64,000 nucleotides of DNA from Aphrocallistes beatrix. Lineage: Eukaryota > Porifera > Hexactinellida > Sceptrulophora > Aphrocallistidae. Shown here piece by piece: positions 3,792-61,414 of the stretch (positions are counted from its first letter, which is position 1; each line of letters opens with the position of its first letter). The position numbers and the translations under genes are program-made. Location of the stretch: NCBI GenBank assembly GCA_963281255.1, contig OY725501.1:62001-126000 (forward strand), in the 5' to 3' direction. Below the pieces are notes generated by a model, which ran no database searches, was not told the DNA's origin, and worked only from the letters and a program-made list of their open reading frames with translations.

Positions 3792-6700
3792 TCAGAGGTG
3801 AATGGAACAGTATTCGTTCATCAGAACATAACATGCCGTGTAGCAGACCTAGATAAAGGTGACAATTAAATCAGAACTCAATACTACTAACTTATTTATT
3901 TATTAACTAACCAATGTTGGGACCATCTGCATCCTCTGTCTTCTCAGCTTCCTTACAGCATTGTAGATGTTGATAGGTTTTTTCAGCTTCAGCTCCTGCA
4001 CTACATTGAAAATAGTCAGCAGAATTCCAGTTTTTGTTATACCATCACCACAATGGATGATGATGGGTTTGAGTGGTTCAGTTTCTTTCTGGTGGATCAT
4101 CTGACCTAGGAGAGCAATTACATTATTGAGATCAGATGGAGTGCCATCATCATTCCAAACGGCTGAAATACACTGTAATACAGTTCTATTCTTCTTCTCT
4201 ACTTCGTGTTTTATTAGAAGCTCTTGCTTTATTATGGACGCTTCAGCTTCTAATTTTTCAACAATACTGACAGAGAATGGATGGCATTCTAGATTCTTGC
4301 CTTCTTTCGGCCAATAAGCTTTCCTTTCTGAGAGATCTCCAATCATTTTAGCTTTTTCCTTCTTGGTGGCTAACATGATCACCATACTGGGTTCCGTTTG
4401 ATAGAGCATTTGCAGGAAGTCAGCAAGTGTTTCAGTTGTGGGGTGCATTGTAGCAATCAATTGATAATTACAGACATGACTCGCGTTGATATAGTCTCCT
4501 TCCAGATATGGAGACTCCAATACCACACGATTATCTTCAAATGGCAGTATATCTTTTATTGGGTTTTTAATATCATTTTCTGGTTTGATTGCTTCAATAA
4601 TTTCCTCATGAAAAGCTTGAGTGTTCAAAGTGAGTTTATCATATTCTTCTTCCATCTTAGATGTTTCTCCATCACCAGTTTTCATGTATTTCTGGTAGGT
4701 CTCTCTGAATCGATTTGCTGGTATATTAGTAGATTTTGGTTCATCATGAAATTTCCTCAATTCTAGCGCTTTTGTTGGGGCATAATATATGTCCTCTCCT
4801 CCAGAGACTTCTAATTGTTGATCAGAGGCTATATGTACATCGTCGGGGTGTTTATTGGGGCCTAGTGTGCCTTGGTTGAAATATGGCGTTTGATTGTATT
4901 CTATTTCGGTTGACTCACTGGGAGTGTAGTCACTCGCCTTAAATTCTGAGTTAGGTGGTTGATCAAAGTTTGTTATCGGAAATTCGCTCAAGTTAGAATA
5001 GTAGGTTGGTTTTGGACCCTTTAGAAGAATGTTTGCAGATTCTTCAATTGAAGAATAAAAGTGCGCTGGTTTTCTTAGATCTTCGAGTGGTATATCATGA
5101 GTGTCTAGCTCTTCAATATTAGAGTATTTTGTAACATCAGCTTTCTTCCCTTTGCTTTTCGTTCCTTTAGTATTTTCAATTTTAGACTTAACACTATCTA
5201 TTGTGCTATCTTCTTTTTCTATCTTCTGTCTTTTTCTCTTCTTTATTTTGCAGGAGATGATAGTAATTAGTAGAATGCAAGCCAATATAACTATGGATAT
5301 TGCAGCTACTCCTGAAGGTATAATGTAAATCACTGGAGCTGTGGTTGAAGCTGAGGCTGGGGCTGTGACTGGGAGTTTATGGGAGAGAGTAATTGTGACA
5401 GATTTGTTAGATGTTTTAAATGTGTAAGCATAAGATAGAGTGACATATATCGTATAAGTTTCTCCTGGAATTAGATCTGTGAGGTTATAAAAAGTTTCTG
5501 CTGTTGATTTTGTGAAGGTCTCTTTTGTTCCATTGTAGCTTATTCTAAACACTTGTTCGGCTTTTTCTGGTAGAACAGTTTCTACTTCCCAAAATATGAT
5601 GATCGAGCTACCATTAAGGTCACTATGCTTTAACGAAATAATTCTTTGCTCAACGAACCCTAAATACAAGAATGGCTATTAATAATTTAAATTATTTCTT
5701 TGTTATATATTGCAGTCAACAATGTTTTGTCTCTCCTAGACTGTTATATTGGATTTATGATCCAATATAATGGTATATAAAATGAGTTTCGGTGTACGGC
5801 CGGACGTAATTTCTCTTCCAGCAAGATTTTATTAATTAACAACTAACCTGTCACATTTAGGAGAAAATTAGCTGTTAGATAACTAACATCATCAGCAGTG
5901 TACCTTCTTAAAGCGTATAGACCTTGGTCCTCTATCCTCAATACCTCAATATTGTACTCACCACCAGAAGTTGATAATTCCTGTTTCCCATTTATGCTTA
6001 TCACTAAATCGCATTTGTTGATCTCACAGTTTAATTTTAGTTTTTGAGTCAAAATTTGAATATTGATAGATTGAAGAGATGGAAAATTTTCATTATTCAA
6101 GTCACCAAATTCTCTCACTGTAGTTCCATATGAAAGCTGTATATATGCTGTATCTAATAATGGGATGAGAATTATATTAAAAATATAGATTAAACCTTAA
6201 TAAGTCATTGCACATTAACACAATCAGAGTACCTTTCAAATCCATTTCAATATTTCCAACAATTGTGATAGGACTCTGTCTATAAAAGCAACTAAACGTG
6301 TAAGCTCCTGGTCCCATCCTTGAAAACACATCACTCACATCTACTGGATTTAAAAATTCAATGCTAGTGTCCGTATCGCCGTTTTTTACTTTATCAGTTG
6401 TCCACCGAATTGAAGATATAGTAACGTTCGGATTTCGATATATAAAGACAAACGATTGGCCTCTGATGTAAGTTTTACTTTGAGATTCAGCAAAATAGTC
6501 ATCGTTTACTAAATAGGAAATAATATAATTTTTAAGACATAACTTCTTTCCTTAAAGAACGTTTCGACACTTAATACAGAAAACGAAATTTAGATTTTAG
6601 ATGATTGCTACAAACTTACCTGATTCAGTTTTATTTGTCAAAGAAAATTTTCCAATTGAAAATAAAGTAGTTATCCCTTGGGTATTTGGGACATGACAGG

Positions 6701-9700
6701 TATAAAACCCATCTTTTACAACATACAAACTGCTAGCTCCTATTTCAGAGTTAAATAATGCGTTTTCTGCTTGAGGCTCTGATGCAACAGTCTTTTGATA
6801 ATACCACTTAATGCTACTAATCCCAGCATTCTGATAAGTAGTGAAGCAAGCTATTTCGGAATCATTTTCCAATAACGTGTTGTTCTGAATGGGTTGGTAG
6901 ATTGCAGAAGATCTTGTTGCAATTTCAGGTTCTATACATAAGAGAAAAATTCACGATTTGAAAAGAATAATATTGTATCCCATTAAATTGTATACCTGTT
7001 ATTCCTATGTCCAAAATGAAAATTTGGCTTTTCCTTCCATTCCAAGTCTGAGTTGTACTAAACGAGTATCTTCCTATTGAAGCAAGAGTGAAATCTTGAA
7101 TTGAATAGGTAGTAGCATCAGATACGGTAGACTGAGGCAGTATCCAGGTCCCAGATGCAAAATTTGCTGATAATCGTACTTGCGTTGAAGTTAAGGGGAT
7201 TTTAATTTGAATTACTCTTGGACTTAGAGTTGTAAAGGTTTCTGCAGTGGATCCAGGATAGGTAATAGTCAACTTGGGTTCTAAAGTTAAATAATATAAA
7301 TTAATTTTTTTAGTTTAGTATTTTATACAGTGCCCATTTTGTCCGATAGTCATTATATCCCTTGTGTGAATAGTATGTTCTCTCTAACGAACGCCGAATG
7401 AAAATTTAAAAATTCAGCCAAAGATGCACTGCACACCTACCTTGTATTGATAGAGTAATAGACAGTATATTATACCATGTGTTAACTCTGCATACAAAAG
7501 TCCTAGGACTGCTGAAGGTCTGATCATATAGAATGAGTGGGTTATTATATTGATAGTTCCATTTAATATTGTTCAATGAATGAGATGAAGAATCTGGGTC
7601 GCAGATGATTTGAACATTTGTAGGGTCTATTTGTTTTATGTAATTGTATGACATTTGATCTTTTGCTCCTAGAGATAGAATATGGATGAAAGGGGTAGGA
7701 AAAATATTCTATAATAAAATCAAATTTGGATGAATACAAAATACAGTCGACTCCACTTAATAGGGTCACATCGGTCATAGGATATTTTGGTCCGATTAAG
7801 CGGAGAACCTATTAACCGAAAATATTTTGTATTAGGTTCTATGTGTGAGAGCTAAAAGTGGCCCTATTAAGTGGTTGACCCGATTAAACAGTGACCCTAA
7901 TAAGTGGAGTCGACTGTACTATATATTTATAAATTTTAAACTTACTGATTGTATACTCAGGGTTGAAGATAGCAGCTATATAACTACCCACGCTACACAT
8001 GTAAAAACCTGATGATGACGTCCTAATATTCAGTGTACTAACTCCTGAATAAGGGCTAGAACTTGATGATATTATCGTATTAGTATCAGTTTGAGTAGGT
8101 TTATATGTCCATTGAATTCTCTGCGAAGTGTTGATTGCACACACAAGTGTTGTATCAGCATAGAAAATGGCATTGTTCGGTATCTGCATATATTCACCAG
8201 ATATTTCTTTTGCGAAATATGTACCTATAAGTAAATTACGGAATATAGTAGAAATACTCATTTTAGAAGAAGCTTCCTTTTCATAAAACATCTCCAAAAG
8301 CATTGAACATACCTGTTGGTAAAAGTTGTATTTGTATCGTCAGAACTTCGGTACTATGAGGTGAATTTTCGGACTGATAGAATGAATACAATCCACCATC
8401 ATTATATGTAAAAACAGGGAATCTGATCGATTTTGAATGGACATAGACATTATTAGGTCTTTTCCATCTTCCTTCGAGGTTACTTTGTAGATGAATATTA
8501 AGACTTAACACCCTAACAGTAACTGTATTGGTGCAAGGGTATATGCTAGTGTGAATTGTAGTTGAGATGTCGTTTGTCAATGTGACCAACGTAGAGGCTA
8601 TGGATGCAACAAATAAAATGTGTTAAAAAATGTATTCTCTCTCTTGCAAAATTCAAACCTCCTAATGCTGTATATATGGTATAAGATGATTTTCTGGTCA
8701 CTCTGCAGCTATAACGCCCAGTCAATTCAGGGCAGGCATACAGTGTACTGATTCTATCGGTTGAATCCCAGTTGGATTGTGATGTCACATCTGTTGTAGT
8801 ACTAGACTGTCCGTCTTGAAAGCTCCATGTAATCTGACCTGATCCTGTCTCAGTGATACAGAACAGAGTTGTGCCAGAAGTTAAAATTGTATTGTTGTTC
8901 AGAGGTTCATAATTGAATACGCCTACCACTCTTCCAAATATTGGAACTATCAGTATAAAAGTACACATAATATTGGTCACAATAAACTTAGTAATATAAG
9001 ATTATCTACCACAGGGAACTTTTTACGAGCAAATATAGGATTGAAATTATAATACGTATTATTGAGGAATTTCAAATAATACTAACTTACTTGATGCTTC
9101 ACAGAAGTAGCATGTGTATTTGGACGAACAAAGATTATCCCACCAAGAACCATAATAATAGAAGATAACACAATCTTTTGAACTTCCACCTGAAGGTTGA
9201 TTATAATAAAATGATCTGTATGTACTGGTACTACCATCAGCCCATACAAAATTAGATCCATATGTTCCTGCATCATTAGTTATATCATTTAATCCAATCC
9301 AACATATTGAAGAGGAGATACTAGTTACAGATGAACTAAATTGGCTGTTTTGAGTAGAAGATACAATGGTACTGAGATCTCCACCTCTTGATATACAGTC
9401 TGTTCTTGCTTCTTCCCAACTTACACCCGTGGTATTTGAAATAAATGTATGACAATAACCATCATACACCACACTGCATCCTACCGTTGGCACTATACAA
9501 TTTTAATAATTAATAGCGTATTTGTATTTAGATGAGTAGGACCTATATTTTTACACTTCTTTGCTATGTATGTATCGTTGTTGAGCTTTGCAGTGAATAG
9601 CATCATATTCACTTCAAAGTTTTATTTATTCATTACTATCTCGAATTTAGGGATTAAAAATACACGAGTATAAAGTCAATATTGAAGAGGCCCCTAGGCA

Positions 9701-10655
9701 CCAAAATATTTGGGCCATACCCAACTATACCTAAAGGCAAAGTTGAATAAAATAACAGGAAAAGCATTGCAATGACTGTCGGTTAATTAATTCGAAATAC
9801 GGTATAGTCAGTCTACTACACAAAATTAGGCTAAATGAACACTTTTTAAGAATTAAATTTATCGCTAGCAGCGCCGGCGCCACGGTTTTAGAAGTGGTCC
9901 GGTTTTTACCGAACCAACCTGACCACTTTTGAAGGGGTTAACAGAAGCAACCTGGGGCCACTTTTGAAAAGTGGTCCGGTTAAAACCGAACCAACCGGAC
10001 CAGTAGCGCCGGCCCTGGGCTTATGGAAAAAAGTCATCAAAATTTCTTGTTCAATTGACCGGGGGCTCCTAGGCACTGCTAATTTGCTTATTGGGTAATC
10101 CACCACTGACAAGACTATAGTCACTTTGTTCTTTTAAAAATAAATATTTATACTCATCACGAATTTCGAACTTACCTGCCTTCTCACAGAAGTAGCATGT
10201 GTATTTGTTTGAACAAGAAAGATCCCACCATGAACCATCATAATAGAAGATAACACAATCTTCTGAACTTCCACCTGAAGGTTCACTAGAATAAAATGAT
10301 CTGTATGTACTGGTACTACCATCAGCCCATACAAAATTAGATCCATCTGTTCCTGCATCATTAGTTATATCATTTAATCCAATCCAACATATTGAAGAAG
10401 AGCTAGTTACAGATGAACTGAATTGGCTGTTTTGAGTAGAAGATACAATGGTACTGAGATCTCCACCTCTTGATATACAGTCTGATCTTGCTTCTTTCCA
10501 ACTTACACCCGTGGTATTAGTAATAAATGTATGACAATATCCATCATATTCTACACTACAGTCAGATGTTGAGACTACAAACATAAATATATAATTACTA
10601 ATAGAGTTTCGAAAATTTATCGGTTAATCCTTACTATTAAAACTCGATTATTGTG

Positions 10656-10694
<39 letters not shown>

Positions 10695-11992
10695 GTAACG
10701 AATTGATTGAAGAAACTGCCGGTCATAGAAAGCTAATTTTTGGCATGTGGGAGTATTTTGGCTATGGCTCCAGTAAGTTCTGAGCTCAGAGCAAAATGTC
10801 GACTCATCATGGAATTATGACGTCATTGTCACATTTTTAAAAGTTAAGCACACAGTTATTCGAGCATAACTCAGCCATTATAGGAGATAGAAGGCTGAAA
10901 TTTTAATAGAATCTGTATACTAACACACCTCACATATGATGCGACTTTCATCAAAAAATGATGACTCATCACTCTGTTATGACGTCATCATTACGCATCA
11001 AAAATTTTAAAATTGACAAATTTGGTGATTTTTCGAGTGAAATCGGTTTTAACACTAAGATGGACATATTTAGAGATGTTATCTCCCTTACAATTAACCA
11101 ATGTCACCTCCAGGCGACCGAAGGGAGCCTCTGGCGGACACGAAGTGTCCGCCAGCCGCGCAGCGCAAGCAAGCGAAGCGCGCTTGTAGTAAATTAAACA
11201 TCCAAAGCATGGTTAAGACCAGAGTTTTGTGTTTGTCCGAATTGATTGAAGAATTGGGAATTCATAGAGATGTGAAAATTGGCATGTAGCTGTCAAATGA
11301 TATGACTACGATTAAGTTCTAAGATCTAAGCGAAATTTTCACACCTCTACAAAAAAAATGTGAAACAATTTTTCACACCTTTTCTATACAAGATAAATGA
11401 CTACACTATCACAATAGAAATCATTGTACGACACTACAATAGATCGTCATTGTTATTAATACTTAAAGCCACAACTTATGTTTGATATCTTAAACGTATT
11501 ATAGTGTATGACAATAAAAAAGATGATGTGCATTTTTCACACCTTTATATACATATTTTCACACCATTTGATGAATTTTGAAAATAATGCTAGAGATTAG
11601 CTTCCAACGGTTAACATGGGATTTTTAGTGCTCTAGATTTCGAATATTATATTTTCGGATCCATAAGAGAAATTATTCGTTGACCTTTGTTTACAATATT
11701 TATATAAAGGAAAAAATTCCCAAATATGTTAGATTGAGTAACTCCAGGCGCCCGCAGTGTCCGCAAGCCGCGCAGCGCAAGCAAGCGAAGCGTGCTTGTA
11801 TTAATTAATATGTTTGTTTAGGTTTATCTGTCATTTTTTCTCCATTTAGATAATTAAAATATTTATCATTGAATCTGTGAACATATAATTAGTTCAACTA
11901 TCTAAAAAGCTATAAAACTACAAATATATACCTGCTGTAAATGTTGAACTTAATATTGAAGTCAATAAAATAGTCCAGAGGATCCAGTACAT
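3792..11992 (-). CDS. Receptor gene A: two C-type lectin domains, eight Ig-like domains, FN3, TM and PTP-like pseudophosphatase
   Basis: Exons in transcription order: signal 11932-11992 (start MYWILWTILLTS), lectins 10176-10574 and 9091-9492, Ig-like 8659-8946, 8313-8597, 7946-8224, 7441-7668, 6996-7280, 6620-6931, 6233-6508 and 5848-6153, FN3/TM/PTP 3912-5659, last helix 3792-3848. Every ectodomain exon is phase 1-1 and the joined frame is open for 1641 aa. The lectin exons show WIGLND and the end pattern GSWWDxxCSxKYTCYFCE; the sugar-site triplet is EPS in the first and QPS in the second, so calcium binding is uncertain. The TM helix is followed by tyrosine motifs (TKYSNI, YYSNL). The single PTP domain has P-loop HCGDGITKTG and no WPD loop, so I infer it is catalytically impaired. 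It would sit at the cell surface. Gene B ends 600 bp upstream, same strand. The exon joins are my reading of splice consensus and shared phase. Confidence 0.82.
7744..7916. mobile_element. pogo/Tigger-like MITE in an intron of gene A
   Basis: The 173-bp element has terminal inverted repeats starting CAGTCGACTCCACTTA, ending TAAGTGGAGTCGACTG, and flanked by TA on both sides (7742-7743 and 7917-7918). CAGTCGACTC ends with a TA target duplication are typical of Tigger/pogo elements. It has no coding capacity and lies in the intron between the third and fourth Ig exons of gene A. Confidence 0.8.
9869..10017. mobile_element. Probable TIR-bearing MITE between the two lectin exons
   Basis: About 149 bp with ends CAGCGCCGGCGCCA and, inverted, CAGGGCCGGCGCTA. 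Inside are repeated AGTGGTCCGGTT and AACCGAACCAACC blocks. It is strikingly GC-rich against the intron around it. I could not find a clean target duplication, so the superfamily (hAT is likeliest from the CAG ends) is uncertain. Confidence 0.55.
10661..11189 (+). repeat. Dispersed repeat, family R, copy 1 (intron 1 of gene A)
   Basis: It starts with a TA microsatellite (about 10662-10692), followed by a body shared with 17760-18233 and 18270-18642 (GAATTGATTGAAGAA, then GGCATGTGGGAG, then TTATGACGTCATCATTAC). It ends in a GC-rich tail containing GGCGGACACGAAGTGTCCGCC, a 9-bp stem with a GAA loop, and the hairpin CAAGCGAAGCGCGCTTG. It has no coding capacity. Helitron-like origin is one option, not shown. 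Confidence 0.7.
11190..11800 (+). repeat. Dispersed repeat, family S, copy 1 (intron 1 of gene A)
   Basis: The body differs from family R but shares its plan: TTTGTCCGAATTGATTGAAG near the start, GGCATGT soon after, and the same GC-rich end (CCGCGCAGCGCAAGCAAGCG). The second copy is 18643-19439. It shares the TTCCAACGGTTRACATGGG segment, which recurs several times there. Non-coding. Confidence 0.65.
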
Positions 11993-12592: not shown

Positions 12593-14592
12593 TTACTGTT
12601 GAAGCACTCTATATTCTCTAATCAGCTCATAGCAATTCGTGTAAGAGATCTAAAGGAGGAAAACATGTAAAAATAGAAATCAATTTCGCTTTTATGAATG
12701 AATTATCTTGACTTACGAGAGTTGGGACCATGTTTGTTCTCTGCATTCTAAGATTCTTCACAATTTTCGGGATACCAAAATCCTCCATCTCTTGCATCGC
12801 CAGATAGCATGTCAGCAACACTCCTGTCTTACTCAGCCCATCGTTACAGTGGATTATTATGGGTTTGTTTAGATTATCTTTTCTGTGTTTAGAGATAATT
12901 TTGAGAAGTGTTAGAACACTTTTTATATCACTTACAGAGCCATCTTCTTCCCATCCAGCAGATATGAGGTGTCGAAACGAGATTGAGTTGTTTTCCAGGC
13001 TATGTTGCAAGGAAATTTCCTGATCTATCAAGCTATCTAATACTATTGGGATTGGTATGCCCATATTTGGAGCTTCTTTCAAAGGCCAATAACGAACATA
13101 GTCTGATGTACGAGATAGAATGGCTTGGTATTCAGATTTAGTTGTTAACATTACAACCATATTGCAGTCTGTTTGGTAGACAAGTTGTAGCAGATTTCTC
13201 TTTCGACTGGGATGCACCGTTGCAACGAATTGTTTGTTTTGAATATAACTTGCGTTTATTGTGTAATTTTCGAAGTGCTTTGACTCAAGTATGATCTGAT
13301 TCAATTTATTATCATCCGTTAATCCATGGTCCGTATCACTATTTAATTTGAAGAATTCCTCTTCAATATTCTTTCCTTCATCTGAATACTCTTTTTGAGG
13401 TATTTCGTATGTTTCGTTTAGATCTTGTTTACTTTCTGTTTGCTCAATAACATATGTATCATTCGCGGTTTGGGCTCCAGCATTATCATTGTTGTCACTA
13501 GCTTGTTCATCTTCAACATCAAATTTATTTACTTCTAAATTGTTATCAAAATATCTTTCACTCTCATCATTGCCCTTTTCAACATCTAAGACATTTCTAA
13601 GTGTACTTGTTGTATTAAATTCATTTTGCTCTAAAATGACATTTTCACATTCTTCATGCTCTGATTTCCTTATAAAACTATCTTCAATGTTGCTGATGTT
13701 TGCAAAGCAGATTGAATCTGGTTCTCTGTAACTTCTTGTTAAATTAATTTCCTCCGCAGTTTCTATGCTCCCTATATCATTCACATCCTGAAATGAGGAC
13801 TCACTGATGAATACACTAGCACTCTCACAGTCTAAAGGATTTTCAGCCTGTAAATTAGTTGGATCAAACTTTTCAGTTTCGTCAGGGGTCTCACAGACTT
13901 TATTTAGTTTATTTCTATTCTTTCTTCTGGTTGTTAAAATTATCCAAAATATCAATCTAGCGACACCTCCCATTAGAAATAGACTAAATGTCATAACGAT
14001 AATCACAATTCCAGATACCTTCAATTTATCTTTTTCATCTGAAATCTCTCCAAAGTTCTTATCAATGATGAAATACTGTACCTCACTATAGTAAGTTGAA
14101 TTTGTATATGTATTCGTTAATCCAATTTTATACGAGTACACTTCATTATACACCAAATTAGTGAGAAGAAATGAAAGTTGTTGTGTAGAGCCTACATATT
14201 TGAACGTACTGTTTGTTGCAAGGTAGATGTGAAATGTTTCGTTAGAATCGTTTTTTGGATCTTCTATGAGAGTCCATGAAATGTGTACATACGTTTGATT
14301 GATGACTTTTGACTTTATGTCCGTAATCTTTTGAATGTAAGAGCCTGGAAATTGTAAAAGAAATGAAAAAAGGGATTTTAAATGTTTTTGACAGATATTT
14401 CAATCGAAACAATGATATCAGTATTATGCATATGCATACAGGTAGAGTAACAAAAATGTGAAATGATGATGTATTTTATCCATAGTTAAAAATACAACAC
14501 TGGAATCAAAACCTGACTGAAAACTCACCTTGTGAATGAATAAGCAAAATGCTTGATAAACAAAACATAAAAATCGCCCTTTTATCACACAT
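12593..14592 (-). CDS. Receptor gene B: signal peptide, FN3, TM and PTP-like pseudophosphatase, no Ig domains
   Basis: Three exons: 14529-14592 (signal MCDKRAIFMFCLSSILLIHS), 12717-14344 and 12593-12649, giving 582 aa in one open frame. The large exon starts with a diverged FN3 domain (residues about 22-120: VHISWTLIED, then FHIYLATNST). Next comes a TM helix (IVIIVMTFSLFLMGGVARLIFW), an acidic linker rich in Glu/Asp/Asn, and one D2-like PTP domain with P-loop HCNDGLSKTG. The last helix (SYTNCYELIREY) is on its own exon. A Cys-x5-Lys P-loop and an AGWEEDGS stretch where WPD is expected suggest a pseudophosphatase. It looks like a receptor stripped of its recognition modules, possibly a co-receptor or docking platform. 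Relics of extra B copies lie at 42804-42857 and 52715-52935. Confidence 0.82.
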
Positions 14593-29628: not shown

Positions 29629-29660
<32 letters not shown>

Positions 29661-41800: not shown

Positions 41801-42430
41801 GCAAGAACTAATGCTAACTCATAATGTGGAAAAGAAAAGTAAATCCGTAATGCATTGCATTTCAGCAGTTTGGAATGAAGATAGTACTGCAGTATCGTTA
41901 GAAAATATATTAACTCTCTTGATTCGTATAATTAAACAGAAAGAGACAACATCACTTAAACCTGTCATAATCCATTGTGCAGACGGTATCTCAAAGACTG
42001 GAGTTCTACTAACCATATACAATGCAGTGCAGGAATTGAATCAGAGGAAGACTATAAACATCTACAACGCTGTGAAGAATTTGAGAAGGCAAAGGATGCA
42101 AATGGTCCCAACACTGGTTTGTTAATTAGTGCAGCTCCTTAATAGGGAGATGTCCTTATAGCATATATGGCGTACCACATCTGTCCATAAAAGAATCTAA
42201 TGATCTAATCTCTACCAAATATTGCATATTGGATTCCTTTACACCTTATTCTATCACTGGATTTGGTTTGAAAGAAAGAAATGCTTTTTCAAAATTATAT
42301 TTTTAATTCTTTAAATACTAGTACAATGATTATATCACAAAATATTCTATTTTCAGATATTTATATTCTCTAGGCCTGCTACAACACATGCTATGCTTTG
42401 ATGAACGAGTACTGCTCAATTCACCTCTGA
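29894..42430 (+). CDS. Receptor gene D: 25 Ig-like exons, FN3, TM, ITIM-like tail and PTP-like pseudophosphatase; one Ig exon split by a mariner element
   Basis: 28 exons. Signal 29894-29954 (MLYFYLFIFIFASLNLSLAT). Ig exons: 30238-30501, 30562-30861, 30947-31180, 31258-31539, 31602-31913, 31982-32233, 32313-32588, 32658-32957, 33043-33276, 33354-33635, 33698-34009, 34074-34242 plus 35584-35666 (split by mariner), 35742-36020, 36083-36379, 36445-36690, 36765-37046, 37106-37417, 37487-37738, 37864-38139, 38210-38506, 38569-38814, 38887-39171, 39273-39584, 39657-39932, 40019-40327. Then 40396-42116 (FN3, TM, PTP) and 42374-42430. Counting the split exon as one, the frame is open for 2935 aa. The tail has ITIM-like VEYANI (40935-40952) and IYYSNL (41097-41114), both also YxN Grb2-type motifs. 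The only PTP domain has P-loop HCADGISKTG (41973-42002) and no WPD, so I infer no catalysis. The mariner-bearing exon is probably skipped or makes the allele defective. Confidence 0.82.
34243..35581 (+). mobile_element. mariner element inserted in an Ig exon of gene D
   Basis: The 1339-bp element has TA on both sides (34241-34242 and 35582-35583) and about 32-bp terminal inverted repeats starting CTACGGGYGTTCAATAAGTT, with two mismatches between ends. The uninterrupted homologous exon in gene C (24067-24318) reads straight through the site. Removing the element and one TA leaves an exon of 252 bp, the same length as its paralogues. It is a Tc1/mariner, mariner clade, insertion. Confidence 0.97.
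34445..35509 (+). pseudogene. mariner transposase, D34D type, with frame breaks
   Basis: It opens with MASNLKLEQRASIKIRTLLG and the helix-turn-helix region, including the linker RSGRPKSA. The DDE region shows GDETWIRYNEP for the first Asp, then HDNARPHKTK and YSPDLAPCDFWLF with 34 residues between the second and third Asp, which defines the mariner D34D class. The coding frame changes twice: the first frame runs to about 34850, a second covers the SEYQDADPRRL segment to about 34920, and a third carries GDETW to the stop at 35507-35509. It is therefore probably inactive. It lies inside gene D and on the same strand. Confidence 0.92.
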
Positions 42431-49100: not shown

Positions 49101-49739
49101 CGTTACCTAGTTCTACTGTAGTACCAAGTGAAGTTCACTCAGTAAACGATGTTCCTATGACATGTTAGTGTGATATGTATCTAGACTCTATTCGTATATA
49201 TGACTGTGACTAACCTGTGGTGTTGATCGATATCAGAATTACTTCACTGTTATTTACAGAGAAAGTGTATAATCCAGCATTGATTAAAATGAAAGTTGGA
49301 AATGTTATTGAGTTAGAATCAACTTCTGTACTGTCAGGTCTCATCCATTTTCCTGTCGCATCGGTATGTAGAGTGACATTGAGGCTGAAAAGTCTCACAC
49401 TAGCTGAGTTTGTTTGTGGATATAATACAGTATAGTTTTTTGTCCCCTCGCTTGTTGTTAGTGTCACATTGGTTGGGTCTATAATGAATATATATAAACG
49501 CCTTGTTTTCTACCATATATGATGTTATGTATGATTTTGGTAGATCCGCCCTTAATTTCCTGGTTTGACTATACCACTGGAATTATCATCTCCATTAATA
49601 TGACTATGTACATAATTTCTTCATTTTGATTTCACCAACTTAACATTTTTAATGGTCCTGTAATTCTCTCCTCACCTGTTTGTTTGGTTAACAATATTTT
49701 TAATCCAATAAAGACTATAATAAACAAATAGTAGTTCAT
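43183..49739 (-). CDS. Receptor gene E: ten Ig-like exons, FN3, TM, active D1 and degenerate D2
   Basis: 13 exons, 1751 aa, frame open throughout. Signal 49676-49739 (MNYYLFIIVFIGLKILL). Ig exons: 49215-49478, 48557-48859, 48238-48489, 47872-48162, 47497-47802, 47187-47432, 46836-47120, 46423-46734, 46075-46350, 45683-45991. Then 43318-45611 (FN3, TM, D1, D2; the same 2294 bp as in gene C) and 43183-43236. D1 keeps AWPDHDVP and HCSAGVGRTG, so it should be an active phosphatase; D2 reads HCQDGIGKTG. SNPAY and KYSNF motifs lie in the juxtamembrane part. Its first alpha exon is followed directly by a beta2-type exon, so it is shorter than C by a deletion of beta1-gamma1-delta, and the intron there (48860-49214) is about 290 bp longer than the matching introns. 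It is head-to-head with F. Confidence 0.86.
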
Positions 49740-50680
49740 ATCAATTGAAACAAGGTCTTGAAACGTACGCCAAATACTCCTTCTATCTAAATACAACCTG
49801 TTAAGTATGAGAAGGATCCGGGGGATAGTTTAGACAATAGCCTACATTGAAGGTTTCCAGTATAAGTGATCTCATCTTGTGGATAATCAAGGCTATAGTG
49901 TGTCTATAGAGAATGTTATAACATAATAACTAAAGAATAGAGGTTAATTTTTCCTATTTTAAGGCTCCATTGATAATTTGATATTGCTATTAAGTTTCAT
50001 AACATATGAGCATCTGTGTATTAATTAATTAATAATATGGATGCCATTTATCTCCACAAATATCTCAATGAAAGTGTAAAAACAGTAATGATTGCGATGT
50101 TTCTCAAATAAAAATTAATGACATCATCAGAAATCTCATATACAACTACATTGAATGTACTCTTAATATTTTTTTACAAATGATCGTCTTTATACATTGA
50201 AATCCTCCTAGCATTTGTCATATTAGGAAATAACTTTCACTCACTTATGAATATACAGTAGTCTTGAAATTTCCTCTGGAGCAAGTTTTTTTGTTGCAAC
50301 CAAATTCAGTTCAAAGTTAGCTTGTGATAGACTAAGCACTCTCTCTATTGGTGTGTACACATCATCCACTTTAACTGCAAAAAATAAATTAATTATTTGA
50401 TAAGTGAACCCTTAATATAAATAATCATATTTATTTTCTTTGTTGTATTATGGAGTATATTGTATGATCTCTTCAAATTTAGTAATCATTCTTTAAGGTT
50501 CTGCCATTTTAGGAAATTTCATATATTTTCCTGAATCATAATGTAATGTGATATACGTTTCTTACAATTCACTATGCAAACCTAAGTATAACTCTAAATA
50601 GAGTGTACCATTACATATTAATTAAGTAGGTTATCCATTATTTCATTTAAAAATCTATTCAGATTTAATCTTTCCTCCAA
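49740..50680. promoter_or_regulatory. Divergent spacer between genes E (-) and F (+)
   Basis: About 940 bp, aligned by eye over most of its length to the C/D spacer at 28994-29893, with scattered indels. Its conservation next to a broken F gene suggests it still serves gene E, or is simply young. Promoter role inferred from position. Confidence 0.5.
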
Positions 50681-52670
50681 ATGTTGTATGCTTATTTATT
50701 TATATTTATTCTTGCTTCCTTAAATCTCTCTCTCGCAATAGGTAATTGAATAATCAGAGTAAAATTGAGCTACAAATGATTTCCTCACTTAATGCATACT
50801 AAAGGGAACTTTATTGCTATATAAATCGATCACAAATAATCTAAATTTATCAGTTTTAAGAACATTCCCTACTTTGTTCCTAGTGGCAACACTTTTGAGC
50901 ATCTGTGTGCTTTGAAGATTAAAATGTTGAAAAAAAGTTTCTTGCTTCATTTTGATTTTTATAATATTTCTCAATATCAAGTTCTGTGAATTGTAATTTC
51001 GAATACACTACTCTTTATAGACGCAACCACTGTGACACTAACAACAAGCGATGAGTCAGTGAACTATGCTGTGCTATATCCACAAACAAACTCAGCTAGT
51101 GTGAGAGTTTTCAGTCTCAATGTCATTCTACAGACTGATGCGACAGGAAAATGGAGGAGACCTGACAGTACAGAAGTTGATTCTAACTCAATAACATTTC
51201 CTACTTTCACTTTAATCAATGCTGGATTATACACTTTCTATGTAATTGACAGTGAAGCAATTCGGATAAGAATTAGTACCACAGGTTGGTTAGTCACACA
51301 ACGGAATATGGACATATATCACACTAACATGTTATAAAACATAATTTGAAGAGGGACTGCACTCGGGAATTGCAGTAGAAATCGGGTAATACGTAATACA
51401 ATTATCACTAATCAGTGACTATTTATTAATACAGATCAATGATTTACAAATACATCGATTTCTAGGCTCCAACTTTGTAACGATGACTTCACAAGGGAAC
51501 TATGTACCACTTGTCAGCAACATATTCTACACTGCCACAACACTAGTGTGTGCGACTAGTGACACTACCCAGCCGATACAATTGTACTATCAACCTACTC
51601 AGACTTCTACATCCATTAGTAAGACAGGATCATCTCAATGGAATGCTAACACAGGAATTAGTAATCTTGATATCATGACGTCATCAGAAGGCTATTACTC
51701 ATGTCAACCGTTTAATCAAGCAGTATACATTGCTGCCATCTTCAACGCTGCTAACACCATTAGTGAGTTATTATCTTGATATTCTTTAAGAAGGTTCGCT
51801 TATTTTAACCTAGGGTTTATCTTTAGAAGTGTTACCTGGAATGACAGAGATGTCTTATATTCCTATGTGAAGGGAGTTGACCCCATCAATATCTTACTGT
51901 TGTGTGATTTGGAAGCTTCAAATATTGGATTGGGCGAAATAAAGTGGGTAGATTCTGGCACATCCTATAAACAACCCTCTCATCTTGAATGAACTGAATT
52001 CTGTGAATGAACTAACTCTTACATGCAAAGCGGGTACATCGTCGGTTACATCTTCTCTTACAATATCAATATTTGGTTAGTTAAATGCTGATAGATAATT
52101 GAGTGATTATATTTATTTGTCTAATTATTATGTTTAACTTTCGTTTAGAACCTTCGATCACACTCAGTTACACTGGATTTACTTCCTTGACATTTACAAC
52201 ATTAAACCCGAGTATCATCTCTCAAACTATTCAGCTCTTTTCCACACAAGTACAGTTGACAACCAATCTAGGATCTGGAACCTGGCACACACCTCTTTCC
52301 ACCGTAACTGATACGACGCATACAATTCAGACCTTCACACTGACATCTCAGGGAAGATACACTTTCAGTACTAATCGGACTTGGGATGGTAATGATCGAC
52401 AGGTTTTCATACTCGACATGACAGTTACAGGCATAGCATTTACACACTAGTGTATAGAATGCTATGTTACAGGTTTGTGTATACAAGTATTTAGAATTTG
52501 AGCAAATCCAAACATCTTTATTCACTTATCAAATTAGGTACACCATTTGCAGTACAAAATTCTACAGGAGATTACATTCTAAAAGAAAACAATGCGATCT
52601 TCCATTCTGATACAAAATTAGTTTGTTTAATTAATAACTGACTCTAACACTGCAGTGAGTTGGTCCTCTC
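50681..52670 (+). pseudogene. Receptor gene F: truncated Ig receptor gene
   Basis: The signal exon 50681-50741 (MLYAYLFIFILASLNLSLAI) and the first two Ig exons, 51021-51284 (alpha) and 51466-51762 (beta), are intact. The gamma exon (51827-52075) has a small insertion and stops at 51868-51870. The delta exon (52149-52472) carries a 42-bp insertion with an in-frame stop. A beta2 exon (from 52538) has a 7-bp insertion (ATTAATA) and breaks off near 52670, where a gene B relic begins on the other strand. There is no TM or phosphatase exon. If transcribed it could yield a soluble two-Ig protein of about 220 aa, but decay of the message is as likely. It lies in the same position relative to E as D does to C. 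Confidence 0.85.
52431..52466. repeat. 36-bp palindromic insertion between TTACAG repeats at a splice donor
   Basis: CATAGCATTTACACACTAGT followed by GTATAGAATGCTATG is a near-perfect inverted repeat. TTACAG stands on both sides (52425-52430 and 52467-52472), as if duplicated on insertion. Paralogous delta exons pass straight from this point into the intron. It adds 42 bp, a multiple of three, but includes a TAG in the exon frame. Confidence 0.7.
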
Positions 52671-53237: not shown

Positions 53238-56200
53238 TTAGGTTGAAGAGCAGTATTCATTCATTACTGCAAAACAGGAACAGAAATGGGTCTAGAGAAA
53301 AAATAGTTATTTAATTCGTAATATTTAAAACTTAGTTATTGATACATGTATGCTAGAAATAATTCTTACCAAAGTTGGCACAAAGTTCATTCTTTCTCTC
53401 CTAAGACGTTTGATAGTATGGAATATGTCGATTTGTCCTTTCTTCTTCATCTCTTGTATGCACTGGTAAACTGTGTAAATAATACCAGTCTTCCCGATGC
53501 CATCTTGACAATGTATTACTATTGTGTTATTGGGGTTTGCTTGCCTATACTCAATGATTAATTGAAGAAGGATAATGATTGATTGGAAATCTGTGCTTCC
53601 ACCCTTTTCATTCCAAGCTGTGGAAATTACTTGCATAAAAGTCCGCTCCGACTGTTCGGAATTATTCTTAAGTAGGATTTCTTGTTTTATTAATGCTATG
53701 GACTTTTCAGAATTAGTTACAGAGACTTCAAAAGGAGGTACGTTCAAAGAGACTCCGTTATTAGGCCAATAAGCTTTTCGATCAGACATGTTTCCAAGTA
53801 TTTCAGACTTTTCTTCCGAAGTTGCTAGCATAACAACTAACACTGCTTCAGTTTGGTACACCATTTGGAAGAAATCCACAAGAGTATTTGCATCTGGATG
53901 TATGGTAGTTATGAATTGAATACCTTCATGGTAACTGGCATTTATATAATCACACGGAAAGAAAGGAGAAGTGATTGCAACTCGATTGTGATCAAATGGC
54001 ACTATCTCCCCACTAGGGTTTTTGTCAGGGTTATTATCAGCAACATCAGTCGATAAATAGAAGGACTTCTTGCATTGGTAGTCAAGTTCTGAGAATTGTT
54101 GATAAAACACAGATACATATCCTTCTTGATCACTTTCTAGATAGCTGTTATAGGTATTCGTAAAATCTTCAGCTGGAATGGACGTCTTTCCAAGCAAGAG
54201 TTCCAGGACAGCAAGATATATGAACTTGTATTGACAAAAGGTTTGCACCATATGTGGACGATGCTCTCTCATCTCGTTTACAACCTGATAAATTGAGATT
54301 GGCTTCATTTGGCTTATGGCAGATCGAAGGTTGAATAACGTTATAAAGGTCCCAGTTCGACCTACACCAGCTGAACAATGGACAAGAATGGGAGCTTTGC
54401 TGGGCATCATGGTATCTTGAACTGTTCCAACAAAGAATAATAATTCATCATACAAGGTTGGGACATCATGATCTGGCCATGCTGTGAAATGGAAGTGCTT
54501 TATCTGTAAATGTTCCTCGTTGCATTCAACTTCGAACATCCGCGTTATGCTACCATTATCAAAATCAGTTTGTGTGTTTGTAAGTTTATAAGGCCCATAC
54601 TCAACCTGTTCCCCATTATTTGAAGGGAAATAAGCTTCACACTTCCTCTTCTCACCTTCTATCAAATTGGTCACCATCACAATATTGACGATATTCTGTT
54701 CAAAAATCATTCGCCAGAAGTCTTTTAAGGTTTTCTCTTTGGGACCTTGAGAAGCAATGAAATGCTGTGGAACATACAGACCAGGGATATGGTTAGCATT
54801 AATGTAGTCTGACTGTTCATCTTCCCCTTTCTCTTTCAGGACAACTCGTGACTTATCATAAGGGTATATGAACTTGTATTTATTCTTAGGCTTGTTACTT
54901 TGTATTTGGGCTTTATCACAAGTATATCGGAACGCATCACCTCCAAGGCTATCATACTCTTCTTCGAGCGTATTTTCTTTCTCCCAAAGCTGATCAACAT
55001 GTTTTTTAAACATGTCCAGTGGTATTGACTTTTGTCGTTGATCATTATAGTATGTGATATTATACTGACTTTTTTCTCCTCGCATTTTTGAGTATGGTTC
55101 AGGAATTTGTGGTTTTGTCATCATTGATTCTGTATCATGATGGTTATAACTAAAATCATTCTGTTGAGTGCCGCATGTTCTATGCTTATATTCTTTACCA
55201 TTTAACATATATGCAGGATTTGAAACTGAGTCACCTTCTTCCAAATTTTTAATCACATAATTTTTTGTTTTCCTCATTTTGAAGATAATGGTGATTAAAA
55301 ACAGTGTAATTGCTATCGCGACGAGCACGAACATTAGGAACATTAAAGCTGGGATGATTGTCTCTAGGGGGCTACCACCTTGTGACATTGATTGTGTGAT
55401 TACAACAGATTTGTTAGAGGTCTCCAGTGTGTAAGCGTAAGATAATGTGACATAGATTGTGTATGTTCGTCCAGAAATGAGGTTTGTAAGTTCAAAAGTT
55501 GTATCTGTAGTTGTCATTTTGTAGGATTCACTATTTTCTGTGTATGAAATAGTAAATGTCTGATTAGCTTCGTTAGGAAGAACTGTTTCGAGTTCCCAAA
55601 ACAAAGTGATGGGTCTAATATTGACATCGCTATGATTGAGTGAGATTATACTCTGTCTTTTAAAACCTAAGCAAAGAATATATTAATGTCATGGGAATAA
55701 GCGTAATCGATCATTGATTAAAGTCTTTAAACTCTACCTGTGACTGTGAGCATGAATCCAGCAGTTGAATAGGTAACATCAGTACTCGTCTTTCTTCTCA
55801 GTGAGTAGAGTCCTTGATTTTCTATCCTCAATACATCTATGACATACTCTGTGTCTGAAATGGAATAGTCTACAAATGAGTCTCTTTCCATCGACCACTC
55901 ACACATACTAGTGTCACATGTTAGTTTTATGTTCTCTGTTAAAATTGGAATATCAATTGTTTGTGAATGTGGAAAGTTTGCATTATTCACATCAGTGAAA
56001 AGAACTTCCAATGTTCCATTATACTCAAGCTTGGTAAATGCTGTATCTATATGAAACATTTTTAAAATTCACACTGTATTTGTTAATTTTAATGTCATCG
56101 CCGAATTTTTACCCATTAAAATAATACGTGTATCTAATTTTTAATTGTTTAAGTTACTCTATAAAGTTGTTATGATTAACCTAAATGTCTAACATTATTT

Positions 56201-59200
56201 GTCGCTTTTACATAGAAAATCCCTTTACATATCCTATAGTTATATACTTAAAGAATGGAATTCATGACACCTTATCCAATTCCGTACCTTTCATATTCAA
56301 ATTTAGACTTCCAACAACTGTGATAGGACTTTGTCTATAGAAGCAACTGAATCTGTAAGCTCCTGATCCTAGCTGTGCAAACACATCACTGATATCTATA
56401 TTGTTGTAGAATTCCAATATAGTGTCTGTATCTCCATTTTGAACTATATCCGTTGTCCAGTGAATTGAAAATAAGCTGATATTTGGATTATGATAGAATA
56501 GAGTTAAAGAGTCTCCTTTGATATATGTCATATTATCATCTCCGTCTAAATCCTCATTTGATACTACAATACAAAATCGCAAATTAAGAATTTTTTAGAA
56601 TAAATTCCTATTGAAAGTGGATTGTTAGATTACGCTAGATTGTGAGTACAAATGCACTATCGTAGTACATCAACATGTCATAATTAGTGCCGAATTATAG
56701 AAATTTTAACGAAGATTATGCAACTTACGTATTTGAGTGCCATCAGCTAATACAAGTACCCATACAGACAATAGCATATTGCCTTGAAGACGACACGTAT
56801 AGATGCCTTCCTTGATAACAGTGATATTGGCTGCTCCTAATTGATCATTATAGTCTCCACTTTTCATTTGAGGTTCTGAGGATGCAGTTTCTTGATAATA
56901 CCATTTGATACTACCAGCATTAGCATCCTGATTACTTGCAAAGCAAGCTAGTTCTGTGTTAAGTTGACCAAATGTATTGTTCTGTAAAGCAAAGTAACCA
57001 GTTGTGTTTTTCAATGCTAGTAAAGGTCCTAAATGAAGAAGAATGTCATTCAATGGATTCAAAATTGTCACAATCTTAATAAGAAGTGATGAATATTGCA
57101 TTTACCATTAAGTATTGCAAGTACTTAAACATTGTATGCCCATCTGACCTGTTGTAGTTAAACTGATTTGAATTGCTAATGTCTCAACTCCGTTCCAAGT
57201 CGTCACATAGAATTGATACAATCCAGCATGATTAACAGTGAGTACAGGAAATGTAATGTTATCCGAGATAACTTCAGTATTGTCAGGTCTCCTCCACTTT
57301 CCTATCAGGTTAGTTCGTAGTGTGACATTCTGACTCAGCACTCTAACACTAGCTGTGTTAGTGCTAGGAGGTAGGAGTGAGTGTGTTGTAGTACTGTCAA
57401 CTGTTAATGTGATGAGAGGAGGTCCTGTATGTAAATATAATACAATATCCCATCAGTATAAGCCATTGCCAATTAAATACAAATCAATTAAAAAATAATA
57501 ACTATACGTATGTGATGCAATTTGACGAACCAAAAATTGATATTGTGACAGAAAGTGCAATGGAAGATGCGTCCACTCTGCATTCAAGAATTAGTTCATT
57601 CACAGCATTCAGTTCATTGAGGATGAGAGGGTTGTTATATGATGTGCTAGAATCCACCCACTTAATTGCGCTCAAAACAATATTTGAATTTCCCAAATCA
57701 CACAACAGTAAGATGTTGATGGGGTCAATTCCTTTCACATAGGAATGGGACATCTCTGACATTCCAGGTAACAATCCTAGAAAAAAACCATAAACTTCAG
57801 AGAAGAGAACCTTTCTAATGAAATTTCAAAAAATAGCTTACTAATAGTGTTATCCATGTTGAATATGGCAGTTGTATATGTTGCCTGATTCAACACTAGA
57901 CATACGTAGTAACCTTCTGATGACGTCATAATATTAAGAGTACTAATCCCTGTGTTAGCATTCCATTGAGATAATCCTGTCTTACTAATGGGTGTAGAAG
58001 TCTGAGTAGGTAGACATTTCCATTGTATCTGCTGGGAAGTGTCACTAGTCGCACACACTAGTGTTGTGTCAGTGTAGAATATGTTACTGACAAGTGGTAC
58101 ATAGTTCCCTTGTGAAGACACCACGGCAAAATTGGTACCTGTAATTAATTGTATTTTTAAAATAACAGAATTATACGTATTATCAATTGAATATTCCAAC
58201 TAAACCTGTAGCAGTAATCCTAATCTGAATTGCAAGTGATTCATTTCCGTTAATAAAAGATGTCACATAGAATTGATGTAATCCAGCATGATTAGCAGTG
58301 AATACTGAAAATGTAATGTTATCCGATATAACTTCAGTATTGTCAGGTCTCTTCCACTTTCCTATCAGGTTAGTTCGTAGTGTGACATTCTGACTCAGCA
58401 CTCTAACACTAGCTGTGTTAGTGCTAGGAGGTAGGAGTGAGTATGTTGTAGTACTGTCAGCTGTTAGTGTGATAAGAGGAGGTCCTGTATGCAAGAAGAA
58501 TACAATAAACCATCGGTATAAGCCATTGCTAATTAATTTCACTACAAATCAAAGCAAACTTACCTTGAACATAAAGATTGACTGTTAAGAATTTATCAGA
58601 TTGACTAATGTAGTAACAGTTTATCATTGATTGTGGACTATCAAAGTAATTTCTAAAATTGTTTATTTTTAGAAGATTTCCAAATGCGAAACCATCAGCA
58701 TTAGAGATATATACAGTTCTCAGATCTCTGCTGCTACTATTAGGATCACACAGTACCCAAGAATCAGCACTATCAACTCCTGCTGTGTAGAGGTAGGATA
58801 TCCCAGATTGCAACGCTAATAGAGTACAAATAGGAAGTTTAGTTTAAGTAAATTATTTGAACAATCAACAAAATATACTCACTTATTGTCTTAACTGGGT
58901 CAACTACGCCAGCGATATAAGTCTCACTAACTCCATTATTGCTAATATCACAACTATAGAATCCCTGTGAGGAGATGTTAGTTGAGAGAATACTGATTCC
59001 TTCTGATGATATTATTCTGATATTATTAGATGGTACACCAGTTCTTGGGGTCGCTAGAGTGGATGTTTGATAGAACCAACTCACTGCAGTGTTAGAGTCA
59101 GTTAAACAAACTAATTTAGTATCAGAGTAGAAGATCTCATTATTTGCTATCACATCATATTCTCCTGCAGAATTCTCTATTGCAAATGGTGTCCCTGATA

Positions 59201-61414
59201 TGTAACATACTAGTAAAAAGGTGTTTGAATTTGCGAAAATGAATAAATTAACAAACCGATGGCTGCAATATCGATCATGAAAATCTGTCGATCATCACCA
59301 TTCCAAGTCTGATTAGTACTGAAAGTGTATCTTCCCTGAGATGTCAGTGTGAAGGTCTGAATTGTATGCGTCGTATTAGTTACGTTGGAAAGAGGTGTGT
59401 GCCAGGTTCCAGATCCTAGATTGGTTGTTAGCTGTACTTGTGTGGAGTAGGGGGGAATATTCAGGTCAATATTACTAGGGCTTAATATCGTGTATGTTTG
59501 TGTGCTCATTCCACTGTAGTTTGAAGTGAATACTGGTTCTAAATTCGAATAAGAAAAATTAGATATATTATGACTGTTCTGATTAACTTCTATCTTAGCG
59601 CATATAAGTAATTACCTATCACTGACAATGAAGAAAATAATTCACTAGAAGTTTCATCTGCACAAAGAAGAAAGTTATGAAATTGATTTAGATCGTTCAG
59701 AACTATCGGATTGTCGTAGGTTGCAGATTGTGGTGTGTTCATCCGAACATCTTTCAGAGGAATATTAGGATTGTTGAGATCACAGAGTAGTAGAATGTTG
59801 GTGGGATCAATTCCTTTCACATAATAATTCCTACTAAATGCTGCTACCACTAAATGATGATAAATACGTGTCAATGCATGGAATAATAAATCCAATAACG
59901 AGTCGATAGCTTTGAATAAATCCAATGAACTCACCAATAGTATTGTCAGGATTGAATATAGCTGCATTATAACTTCCCAGATTTCCTACTTGGCAGCTGT
60001 AATAACCTTGTTCTGACGTCATAATTTCCAGAGTGCTGATTCCTGTGCTAGCATTCCAACTTGAAGATGTCGTCCTACTAGAAGCAGTAGCAGTTTGATT
60101 AGGTTGATATGTCCATTCTATCTGCTGTGAGGTGTCACTAGTCGCATACACTAGTGTAGTGTCAGTGTAGAATATCTCATTGTCAAGCAATGGTATGTAG
60201 TTCCCTTGTGAGGTCATCTTTGCAAAGTTGATACCTGGATTGATTTCAATTAACATCAATATAATATGTGTCTACGTGTGTGACTGTGACTAACCTGTGA
60301 TGGCAATCAATATCCGAATTGTTTCACTGTTATTTACATAGAAAGTGTATAATCCTTCATTGATTAAAGTGAAAGTAGGAAATGTTATTGAGTTAGAATC
60401 AACTTCTGTACTGTCAGGTCTCCTCCATTTTCCTGTCACATCAGTCTGTAGAGTGACATTGAGACTCAAAACTCTCACACTAGCTGAGTTTGTTTGTGGA
60501 TATGGTAGAGTATAGTTTGTTGTCCCTTCGCTTGTTGTTAGTGTCACAGTGGTTGAGTCTATAGTTAATATAGTTTATAAACGCTGTGTTTTCTACTTTC
60601 TGTCATGTTTATGCATCCATTTGTTACATATGTAATCAAGTATGGATTCCCAGTGGAAGAGAATTAACCTATTCTAATATATTTAATAAACTTTTGATTG
60701 TTGTTTTGAAACATTTATAATTCTTTGAGCGAGTATTTATAAATATATATGAACCATAAGGGTAAATCTGGCCAAAGTGGGGAGTGTGAAAGGAGGCTGG
60801 CCCCCTCAGTTTTCAGAATTATGAAACTTTGGATAGTTTTACTACTATACCATCATTTTTATCTCTAATTTTGGAAGAACGTTAACAAATAACGCATGCA
60901 AATATTCCTGGTAAGATAAATTTGTGTACAATATTTTCTTCTTGGGTGAAATAATAGCTGTAGATATTTTCAAGTGTAGCATTCCAAACAAATTGACTCG
61001 CTCTTGACACCTCCTCCCTTACTTGCAAACGAGAAGACTGACGCCTATTATATGAGACAAAGATGTGGTTTGAGTATAATAAAATTTTGTACCTCATATA
61101 TAGGGCAAGATTATACTTTTGATATTATCTACCTTGCATGATATATTCTGATAAAATGAGTAAGATCTTTCAAATTTATCATTTTTTAACATTTACCTCG
61201 AATAGTGGCCAAGACCAGTCTTCAATGCCCTGGTTTGACTATACCAGTGGAATTATTATCTCTGTGAATTGACTATGTACATGTAATTTCTTCGTTTTGT
61301 TATACACCAACTTTTTAACAATTTTAATGGTTCTGTACTTATCTACTCACCTGTTTGTTTGGTTAACAATATCTTTAATCCAATAAAGACTATAAAGACC
61401 AAATAGTAGTTCAT
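53238..61414 (-). CDS. Receptor gene G: 13 Ig-like exons, FN3, TM, active D1 and degenerate D2
   Basis: 16 exons, 2013 aa, frame open. Signal 61351-61414 (MNYYLVFIVFIGLKILL). Ig exons: 60295-60558, 59935-60234, 59616-59849, 59257-59538, 58883-59194, 58564-58815, 58206-58484, 57842-58138, 57531-57776, 57149-57424, 56729-57028, 56288-56563, 55738-56046. Then 53370-55666 and 53238-53291. D1 keeps AWPDHDVP and HCSAGVGRTG, so it should dephosphorylate phosphotyrosine at the membrane; D2 has HCQDGIGKTG. The juxtamembrane part differs most from C and E (SNPAYMLNG, SQYNITYYND). Relative to A, C, D and E it lacks the membrane-proximal beta-gamma-delta, so an alpha exon abuts beta3. Its distal array is very close to those of C and D, introns included. 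A retroelement lies 412 bp upstream of the start. Confidence 0.86.

Follow-up and report, generated by a model that had tools for sequence, protein, structure and literature searches.

A tandem cluster of immunoglobulin-array receptor phosphatases in Aphrocallistes beatrix, read as candidate paired receptors with active and dead phosphatase domains

A window of 64,000 nucleotides from Aphrocallistes beatrix contig OY725501.1 holds a tandem cluster of receptor genes, labelled A to G, in which arrays of immunoglobulin (Ig)-like modules are joined to protein tyrosine phosphatase (PTP) domains (Table 1). The cluster is a real, well-ordered and recombining set of Ig-array receptor phosphatases with catalytic/dead pairs. 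With somewhat better than even confidence, we read its sequence as that of paired receptor tyrosine phosphatases (RPTPs) of the Ig superfamily, clustered and evolving by birth and death, with opposed phosphatase outputs. So read, the cluster is a novel variant of paired receptors, set on an RPTP chassis. Known paired receptors signal by immunoreceptor tyrosine-based inhibitory or activation motifs (ITIM/ITAM), whereas here the outputs would be an active versus a dead phosphatase domain in the receptor; if this is true, the receptor would be its own signalling switch. An earlier note on this DNA had placed a tandem receptor complex between positions 3792 and 61414, with ectodomains of variable length, near-identical modules, relics and mixed orientation. 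That description is borne out, and both limits hold, the last exon of gene A ending at 3792 and the signal-peptide ATG of gene G lying at 61414.

The cytoplasmic parts of these receptors come in two types. Each of the six non-relic genes has a Y_phosphatase match (88.7-397.7 bits; cut-off 20.9), in line with the PTP and pseudo-PTP tails of the earlier note, and a single transmembrane (TM) segment, seen as the most hydrophobic 21-mer (mean 2.34-3.75) with basic residues after it. In genes C, E and G, the first domain (D1) has HCSAGVGRTG and WPD (AWPDH) intact, and the second (D2) is degenerate, reading HCQDGI(E/G)KTG and WNE. Genes A, B and D carry one domain only, with HC(G/N/A)DG..KTG (HCNDGLSKTG in gene B) and without WPD, preceded by a tail of at least 200 residues. 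These sole domains are of the D2 type, their identity being 36-46% with D2 and 19-29% with D1. Normal PTP activity requires the P-loop arginine and the WPD aspartate; because both are lost, D2 and likewise the single domain of A, B and D are predicted to be without normal phosphatase activity. No close relative of the gene C phosphatase exon was confirmed in 84,980 prokaryote genomes or in viral contigs, using six short peptide patterns per scan, as expected for an animal gene. ITIM-like matches in the tails, two in D and one each in C and E, were not used as evidence. Gene B, which combines a signal peptide candidate, a weak FN3, a TM segment and a dead PTP and lacks an Ig exon, is a possible cis partner of the others.

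Outside the membrane, the arrays follow one module grammar. Exons were taken from stop-to-stop frames and an exon caller restricted to phase 1-1, missed ones were added by tblastn of modules against the window, and the borders were finally set by hand. There are 86 Ig-like modules: 83 with an open frame throughout, one in gene D that is split by a mariner-like element, and two broken ones in relic F. Borders of AG and GT in phase 1-1 delimit 76 of the 83 open modules; for the other seven, candidate borders in phase 1 lie nearby. Three module types, here also called A, B and C, keep one fixed order throughout all arrays. The arrays of genes C and D (25 modules each), G (13) and E (10) are always (ABC)n plus a final A, i.e., 3n+1, so that of gene C is ABC x8 + A. 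The eight modules of gene A run B-A-B-C-A-B-C-A, which is the same order after an extra leading B, and relic F has five modules, including the two broken ones. Since ectodomain lengths differ by whole triplets, growth and loss of the arrays seem to go by whole triplets, and a triplet change, or skipping of the mariner-split exon, would keep the reading frame.

The tentative assignment of the three module types to the Ig fold rests on different kinds of evidence. Type B (27 modules) has the canonical C...W...YxC in most members and appears to be Ig by sequence profile: 22/27 match Pfam Ig_3 at E<=0.1, the best Ig E-value of the set is 4.3e-5 (PF00047), and a profile match to NCAM2 in the PDB reaches 2.2e-11, with bit scores below the curated Pfam cut-offs in the two members for which scores are shown. 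Type A (32 modules) is without cysteine in 26 members, the last one before FN3 having two, and gave no Ig match in Pfam among the 26 of 32 modules scanned, plus one cysteine-bearing last module. Its predicted model (pLDDT 91) retrieved mostly Ig-domain chains among the best 50 Foldseek rows (probability 0.98-1.00, TM-score 0.44-0.60, E 0.003-0.012), with no match at E<=0.001 among these 50; by predicted structure and Foldseek, type A appears to be Ig. The short type C (24 modules, two cysteines in 19 of them) is only probably Ig, being weakly alike: its model has a pLDDT of 78, and the best Foldseek probability is 0.92 at E 0.04, in rows that also include non-Ig chains. In the first B module of gene G (59936-60232), the first canonical Ig cysteine is replaced by Tyr.

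Matches to the fibronectin type III (FN3) domain are sub-threshold, with fn3 at 16.5-24.5 bits (cut-off 25) in genes A, C, D, E and G, the best score being that of gene A; gene B has a weak fn3_SORL1 match only, below cut-off. The lectin exons of gene A match PF00059 at 43.1 and 49.9 bits (cut-off 22.6). The Ig, FN3, TM and PTP architecture that the earlier note had given to the cluster stands in general, with the exceptions that gene B is without an Ig exon, F is a relic, the FN3 match is weak and one Ig exon of D is interrupted by the mariner-like element. C-type lectin exons were seen in gene A only; the two resemble each other, and by eye their usual sugar-binding triplets look altered.

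Both ends of the genes are shared as well. Signal peptides, found by a scan that itself demanded a phase-1 donor, are of one type in C, E and G (MNYYL...) and of another in D and F (MLY.YLFI...), and those of A and B are the best candidates of each gene. The choice was made by likeness among C, E and G and by donor quality; gene C has a rival, more hydrophobic candidate at 28506, and gene A has other candidates too. Loss of the start codon in gene G was considered and dropped, its signal peptide being chosen by likeness to C and E. At the 3' side, a long exon holds the weak FN3, the TM segment and the PTP domains, and a small last exon with C(F/Y)(A/V)(V/L)MNEYCS is found in five of the six non-relic genes (A, C, D, E and G); that of gene B was not located in the search for the shared last-exon text. 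No FN3, TM or PTP was found in relic F. Introns are compact: in C, D, E and G, 68 gaps, one of them being the mariner-split exon, have a median of 72 nt. Such short introns, together with the mostly 33-38% GC, may be a point of likeness to demosponges. Short elements with recurring translated text lie at 17740-19650, in the 2.0-kb intron ahead of the last Ig exon of gene C, and at 10983-11186 and 11629-11805 in the 5' region of gene A.

Sequence comparison brings an exchange of ectodomains between genes C and D close to proof. The two genes are identical over 447 nt, exon and intron alike, and the copy in gene D starts at the right edge of the mariner-like element, at 35582; the nearest modules on either side of this tract are 84-88% identical between C and D. 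The FN3 of gene D is 83% identical to that of C and 57% to that of A, and its PTP is 68% identical to that of A and 49% to that of C. At the nucleotide level, the identity of C and D is 80-97% in FN3, 67-77% just before the TM segment and ~55% from the TM segment on, all in one exon. Because the identity to C drops near the TM segment within one exon and the PTP is nearer to A, gene D is a chimera broken near the membrane, with an ectodomain like that of C and a phosphatase like that of A. It is possible that the likeness of C and D arose through another route, such as recent duplication, instead of gene conversion. The traits of paired receptors seen between C and D are highly similar ectodomains, different cytoplasmic parts and ectodomain exchange, and by analogy the exchange pattern fits paired receptors with homogenised outer and unhomogenised inner parts, as in Siglec-11/16.

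Genes C and D, one catalytic and one dead, are also arranged head to head, as are gene E and relic F. The ATGs of C (28993, minus strand) and D (29894, plus strand) diverge across 900 bp, and those of E (49739, minus) and F (50681, plus) across 941 bp. The two spacer regions are homologous (28808-30519 versus 49560-51300, 81% identical, a 1.78-kb block), and G and C share 4.3 kb at 92.7%, from the array through the 5' spacer to 61827. From 62048, where the head-to-head partner of G would lie, there is a Ty3-type polyprotein (RNase H, zinc-binding integrase, rve). Given the homologous divergent spacers and the 5' region that G has in common with C, the ancestral unit was therefore probably a catalytic gene head to head with a dead one. 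Three copies of this unit would be present: one near whole, one having a relic as its second member, and one interrupted or continuing past the window. The Ty3 stretch (62048-64000) is more G+C-rich and is open at the window edge. The mariner-like element of gene D was inserted at TA in the Ig coding exon C4 and has inverted ends and a transposase frame broken by stop codons; the counterpart of this exon in gene C is uninterrupted.

Constraint differs between the outer and inner parts of the receptors. Maximum-likelihood (ML) ratios of non-synonymous to synonymous substitution (dN/dS, w) were obtained in 19 sets, the fit at w=1 using kappa fixed at its free estimate and p values being uncorrected. 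In B1, C1, A2, B2, C2 and the middle sets, internal copies that belong to one subtype but to several positions are combined. Every module of gene A was excluded, synonymous sites there being mostly saturated, as were G.B4 and G.C4, which diverge strongly from the modules at the same position, and the relic modules except the tip. At the tip, A1 has a dN/dS of 1.07 in four genes and 1.18 with the relic included, and the other Ig sets give A2 1.19, B1 0.46, C1 0.80, B2 0.53, C2 0.47, middle A 0.63, middle B 0.79, middle C 0.57, B7 0.80, C7 0.73, A8 0.57, B8 0.40, C8 0.59 and A9 0.37; the values for FN3, D1 and D2 are 0.30, 0.36 and 0.20. The value w=1 is unrejected in 9/19 sets (both tip sets, C1, A2, middle B, B7, C7, A8 and C8) and rejected at p<0.05 in the other ten, with p<0.001 in C2, A9, FN3, D1 and D2. 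NG86 estimates, from hand-chosen and overlapping pairs, are highest at the tip (1.04) and, among the Ig sets, lowest in A9 (0.33), B8 (0.33) and B1 (0.27). Fisher tests of tip versus PTP on single pairs gave p=0.006 for C-E and p=0.08 for C-G. These ratios suggest that the outermost A modules are free or diversifying and that the phosphatases and FN3 are constrained. The dead D2 is probably in use, and decay is disfavoured, because D2 is the most constrained part.

In the sequence, one ectodomain type, made of A-B-C triplets and a weak FN3, is joined to two cytoplasmic types, catalytic and pseudophosphatase. If the genes are paired receptors, triplets would be gained and lost via unequal exchange, with the frame undamaged. 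Both members of a pair would bind the same variable ligand, which may be self, non-self or microbial, via their membrane-distal modules. On contact, the catalytic member would cluster, or be excluded by its length, thereby shifting local dephosphorylation, and the dead member would dock the same substrates or adaptors and either feed them to the D1 of its partner or shield them, possibly with tail tyrosines as docking sites. The balance of catalytic and dead member would then set the cellular response. An Ig domain spans ~4 nm, at which the longest arrays would reach up to ~100 nm, enough for size-based exclusion from contacts. An active D1 can be supplied with substrate by a dead D2, and the D2 of inactive PTPRU could serve PTPRK in this way (PMC9640194). 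A D-type receptor may thus provide a C-type one with substrate or deprive it. A recognition role for the cluster is likely, and the candidate recognition locus is confined to one 60-kb interval. If the animal fuses or carries symbionts, the locus would be a candidate for the missing recognition genes of non-model animals.

Several observations weigh against paired receptors with a diversifying tip. The only near-whole pair is C/D, in which an Ig exon of D is interrupted; F survives as a relic, no partner of G is visible, and A and B are unpaired. The tail tyrosines of A and D are not conserved above background (7/12 tyrosine columns, p=0.12). The fall of dN/dS from tip to membrane is uneven, with B1 low (0.46) and B7 and C7 high (0.80 and 0.73), and the contrast of the tip is weak in the C-G pair against PTP (p=0.08) and in the C-E pair against the membrane-proximal modules (p=0.17). 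Furthermore, a dN/dS of ~1 in 87 codons is no demonstration of positive selection and may reflect relaxed constraint rather than diversifying selection. This last point would suit the ordinary expansion, in tandem, of adhesion phosphatases resembling LAR, with drift in repeat length, a relaxed tip and dead copies that are scaffolds or decaying: tip dN/dS is ~1 and not above it, and the D1-D2 exon of gene C is nearest in the PDB to PTPRS, PTPRA, PTPRE and LAR. We nevertheless regard such an expansion as doubtful, given that the dead PTP domains stay open and D2 has the lowest dN/dS, that C and D cease to be alike close to the membrane, and that there are two head-to-head arrangements, whose signal peptides fall into two shared types.

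An allorecognition locus, in which highly polymorphic tip modules decide fusion or rejection between individuals, would account for the duplication, relics, head-to-head pairs, exchange and fast outermost A modules, and it has a precedent in Dictyostelium tgrB1/tgrC1, a self/non-self locus that is paired, recombining and Ig-like and has partial duplicates adjoining it (PMC12324515). Receptor pairs directed at microbes or other ligands would, however, be expected to show the same pattern, and we consider allorecognition rather unlikely. We would give still less credence to a histocompatibility-like system of head-to-head Ig-array pairs with a common fast-evolving tip and an active and a dead phosphatase, in which array length (8-25 Ig, in triplets) would act as a length code keeping the phosphatase in or out of contact. 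Misjoined haplotypes or repeats in a highly heterozygous genome could produce near-identical blocks and a 447-nt identity, but C, E and G are ~15% different over the blocks holding D1-D2, C and D differ inside the cell, and insertions of transposable elements and relics differ between copies, which makes an assembly artefact very improbable. Paired receptors with opposed phosphatase outputs remain the explanation that we prefer.

Table 1. Features of the receptor cluster in the 64,000-nucleotide window (SP, signal peptide)
Feature	Coordinates	Strand	SP ATG	Composition
Gene A	3792..11992	-	11992	SP candidate; 2 C-type lectin exons (10176-10574, 9091-9492); 8 Ig-like modules (8938..5848); weak FN3, TM, tail and one pseudo-PTP (exon 3906-5675)
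Gene B	12630..14592	-	14592	SP candidate; weak FN3-like stretch; TM; one pseudo-PTP; no Ig exon
Gene C, catalytic	14929..28993	-	28993	SP; 25 Ig-like modules (28132..17425); FN3-TM-D1-D2 exon (open frame 15020-17377); last exon (ends 14929)
Spacer C/D, divergent	28994..29893	.		900 bp, ATG of C (-) to ATG of D (+)
Gene D, pseudophosphatase	29894..42430	+	29894	SP; 25 Ig-like modules (30238..40327); FN3-TM-tail-pseudo-PTP exon (40374-42122); last exon (ends 42430)
Mariner-like element	34243..35581	+		inside Ig exon C4 of gene D
Gene E, catalytic	43183..49739	-	49739	SP; 10 Ig-like modules (49478..45683); FN3-TM-D1-D2 exon (open frame 43276-45627); last exon (ends 43183)
Spacer E/F, divergent	49740..50680	.		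941 bp, E (-) to relic F (+)
Gene F, relic	50681..52638	+	50681	SP; 5 Ig modules, 2 broken
Gene G, catalytic	53238..61414	-	61414	SP; 13 Ig-like modules (60558..55738); FN3-TM-D1-D2 exon (open frame 53328-55682); last exon (ends 53238)
Identical tract C/D	23705..24151	.		447 nt of gene C, same in gene D
Ty3-type element	62048..64000	-		RNase H, integrase; continues past window edge

The flanking genes, FNTA and PET100 according to the earlier note, were confirmed as such by Pfam (PPTA repeats and Pet100, respectively). A protein kinase N-terminal exon (PF00069) adjoins FNTA at 273-839 on the minus strand, and the GC content of the window is mostly 33-38%.

A clustered Ig-array RPTP recognition locus is not described in the titles and abstract openings of the literature matches listed, which covered only open-licence papers and do not show absence in print. 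The closest phosphatases, LAR/PTPRS/PTPRD (R2A) and PTPRA/E (R4), are alike in having one TM segment and a catalytic D1 with a D2, and include the best PDB matches of gene C. The R2A ectodomain consists of Ig and FN3 domains, with three Ig and multiple FN3, whereas the receptors described here have 8-25 Ig-like modules in A-B-C triplets, or none, and one weak FN3. D2-only members, clustering and exchanged ectodomains further set the cluster apart from both R2A and R4. PTPRU and PTPRK have a MAM-Ig-FN3 ectodomain and, to our knowledge, do not form a cluster with exchanged ectodomains. They resemble what is proposed here in that an inactive paralogue has a D2 that can serve an active D1 (PMC9640194). 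In sponges, multiple PTPs, including an Amphimedon R3 receptor, have been reported, with nothing of this build described in the passages concerned (PMC5336234).

Among recognition loci, Alr and fuhc are polymorphic and tied to allorecognition, whereas the present cluster is known from the sequence of one haplotype. Alr of Hydractinia consists of polymorphic surface genes of the Ig superfamily, and we know of no fused PTP domain in either Alr or fuhc, nor of any PTP domain in tgrB1/tgrC1 of the amoeba Dictyostelium. In Botryllus, fuhc comprises polymorphic surface genes tied to allorecognition, and CD45-like RPTPs are named, in the passages concerned, among the signalling parts expressed in ampullae, not as the polymorphic locus (PMC12065747). 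The tgrB1/tgrC1 genes are like the cluster in being paired transmembrane genes with Ig-like TIG domains and adjoining duplicates, and they are polymorphic recognition genes (PMC12324515). Haplotype-specific Ig clusters of the pearl oyster are likewise similar in their variable Ig number, often with FN3 and a TM segment, and their copy number is haplotype-variable; they differ in that "phosphatase" has 0 occurrences in the main text of the source (PMC9646362). A parallel to the exchange between C and D is offered by Siglec-11/16, paired receptors whose likeness is maintained by gene conversion and whose converted exons are reported to be under relaxed constraint (PMC5701461). As in Siglec-11/16, CEACAM1/3 and CD300A/C, which in the passages matched carry similar ectodomains on opposed cytoplasmic parts, the outer parts here are shared; the opposition lies, however, between an intact and a degenerate PTP domain instead of ITIM and ITAM, and it is combined with a head-to-head layout and very long arrays.

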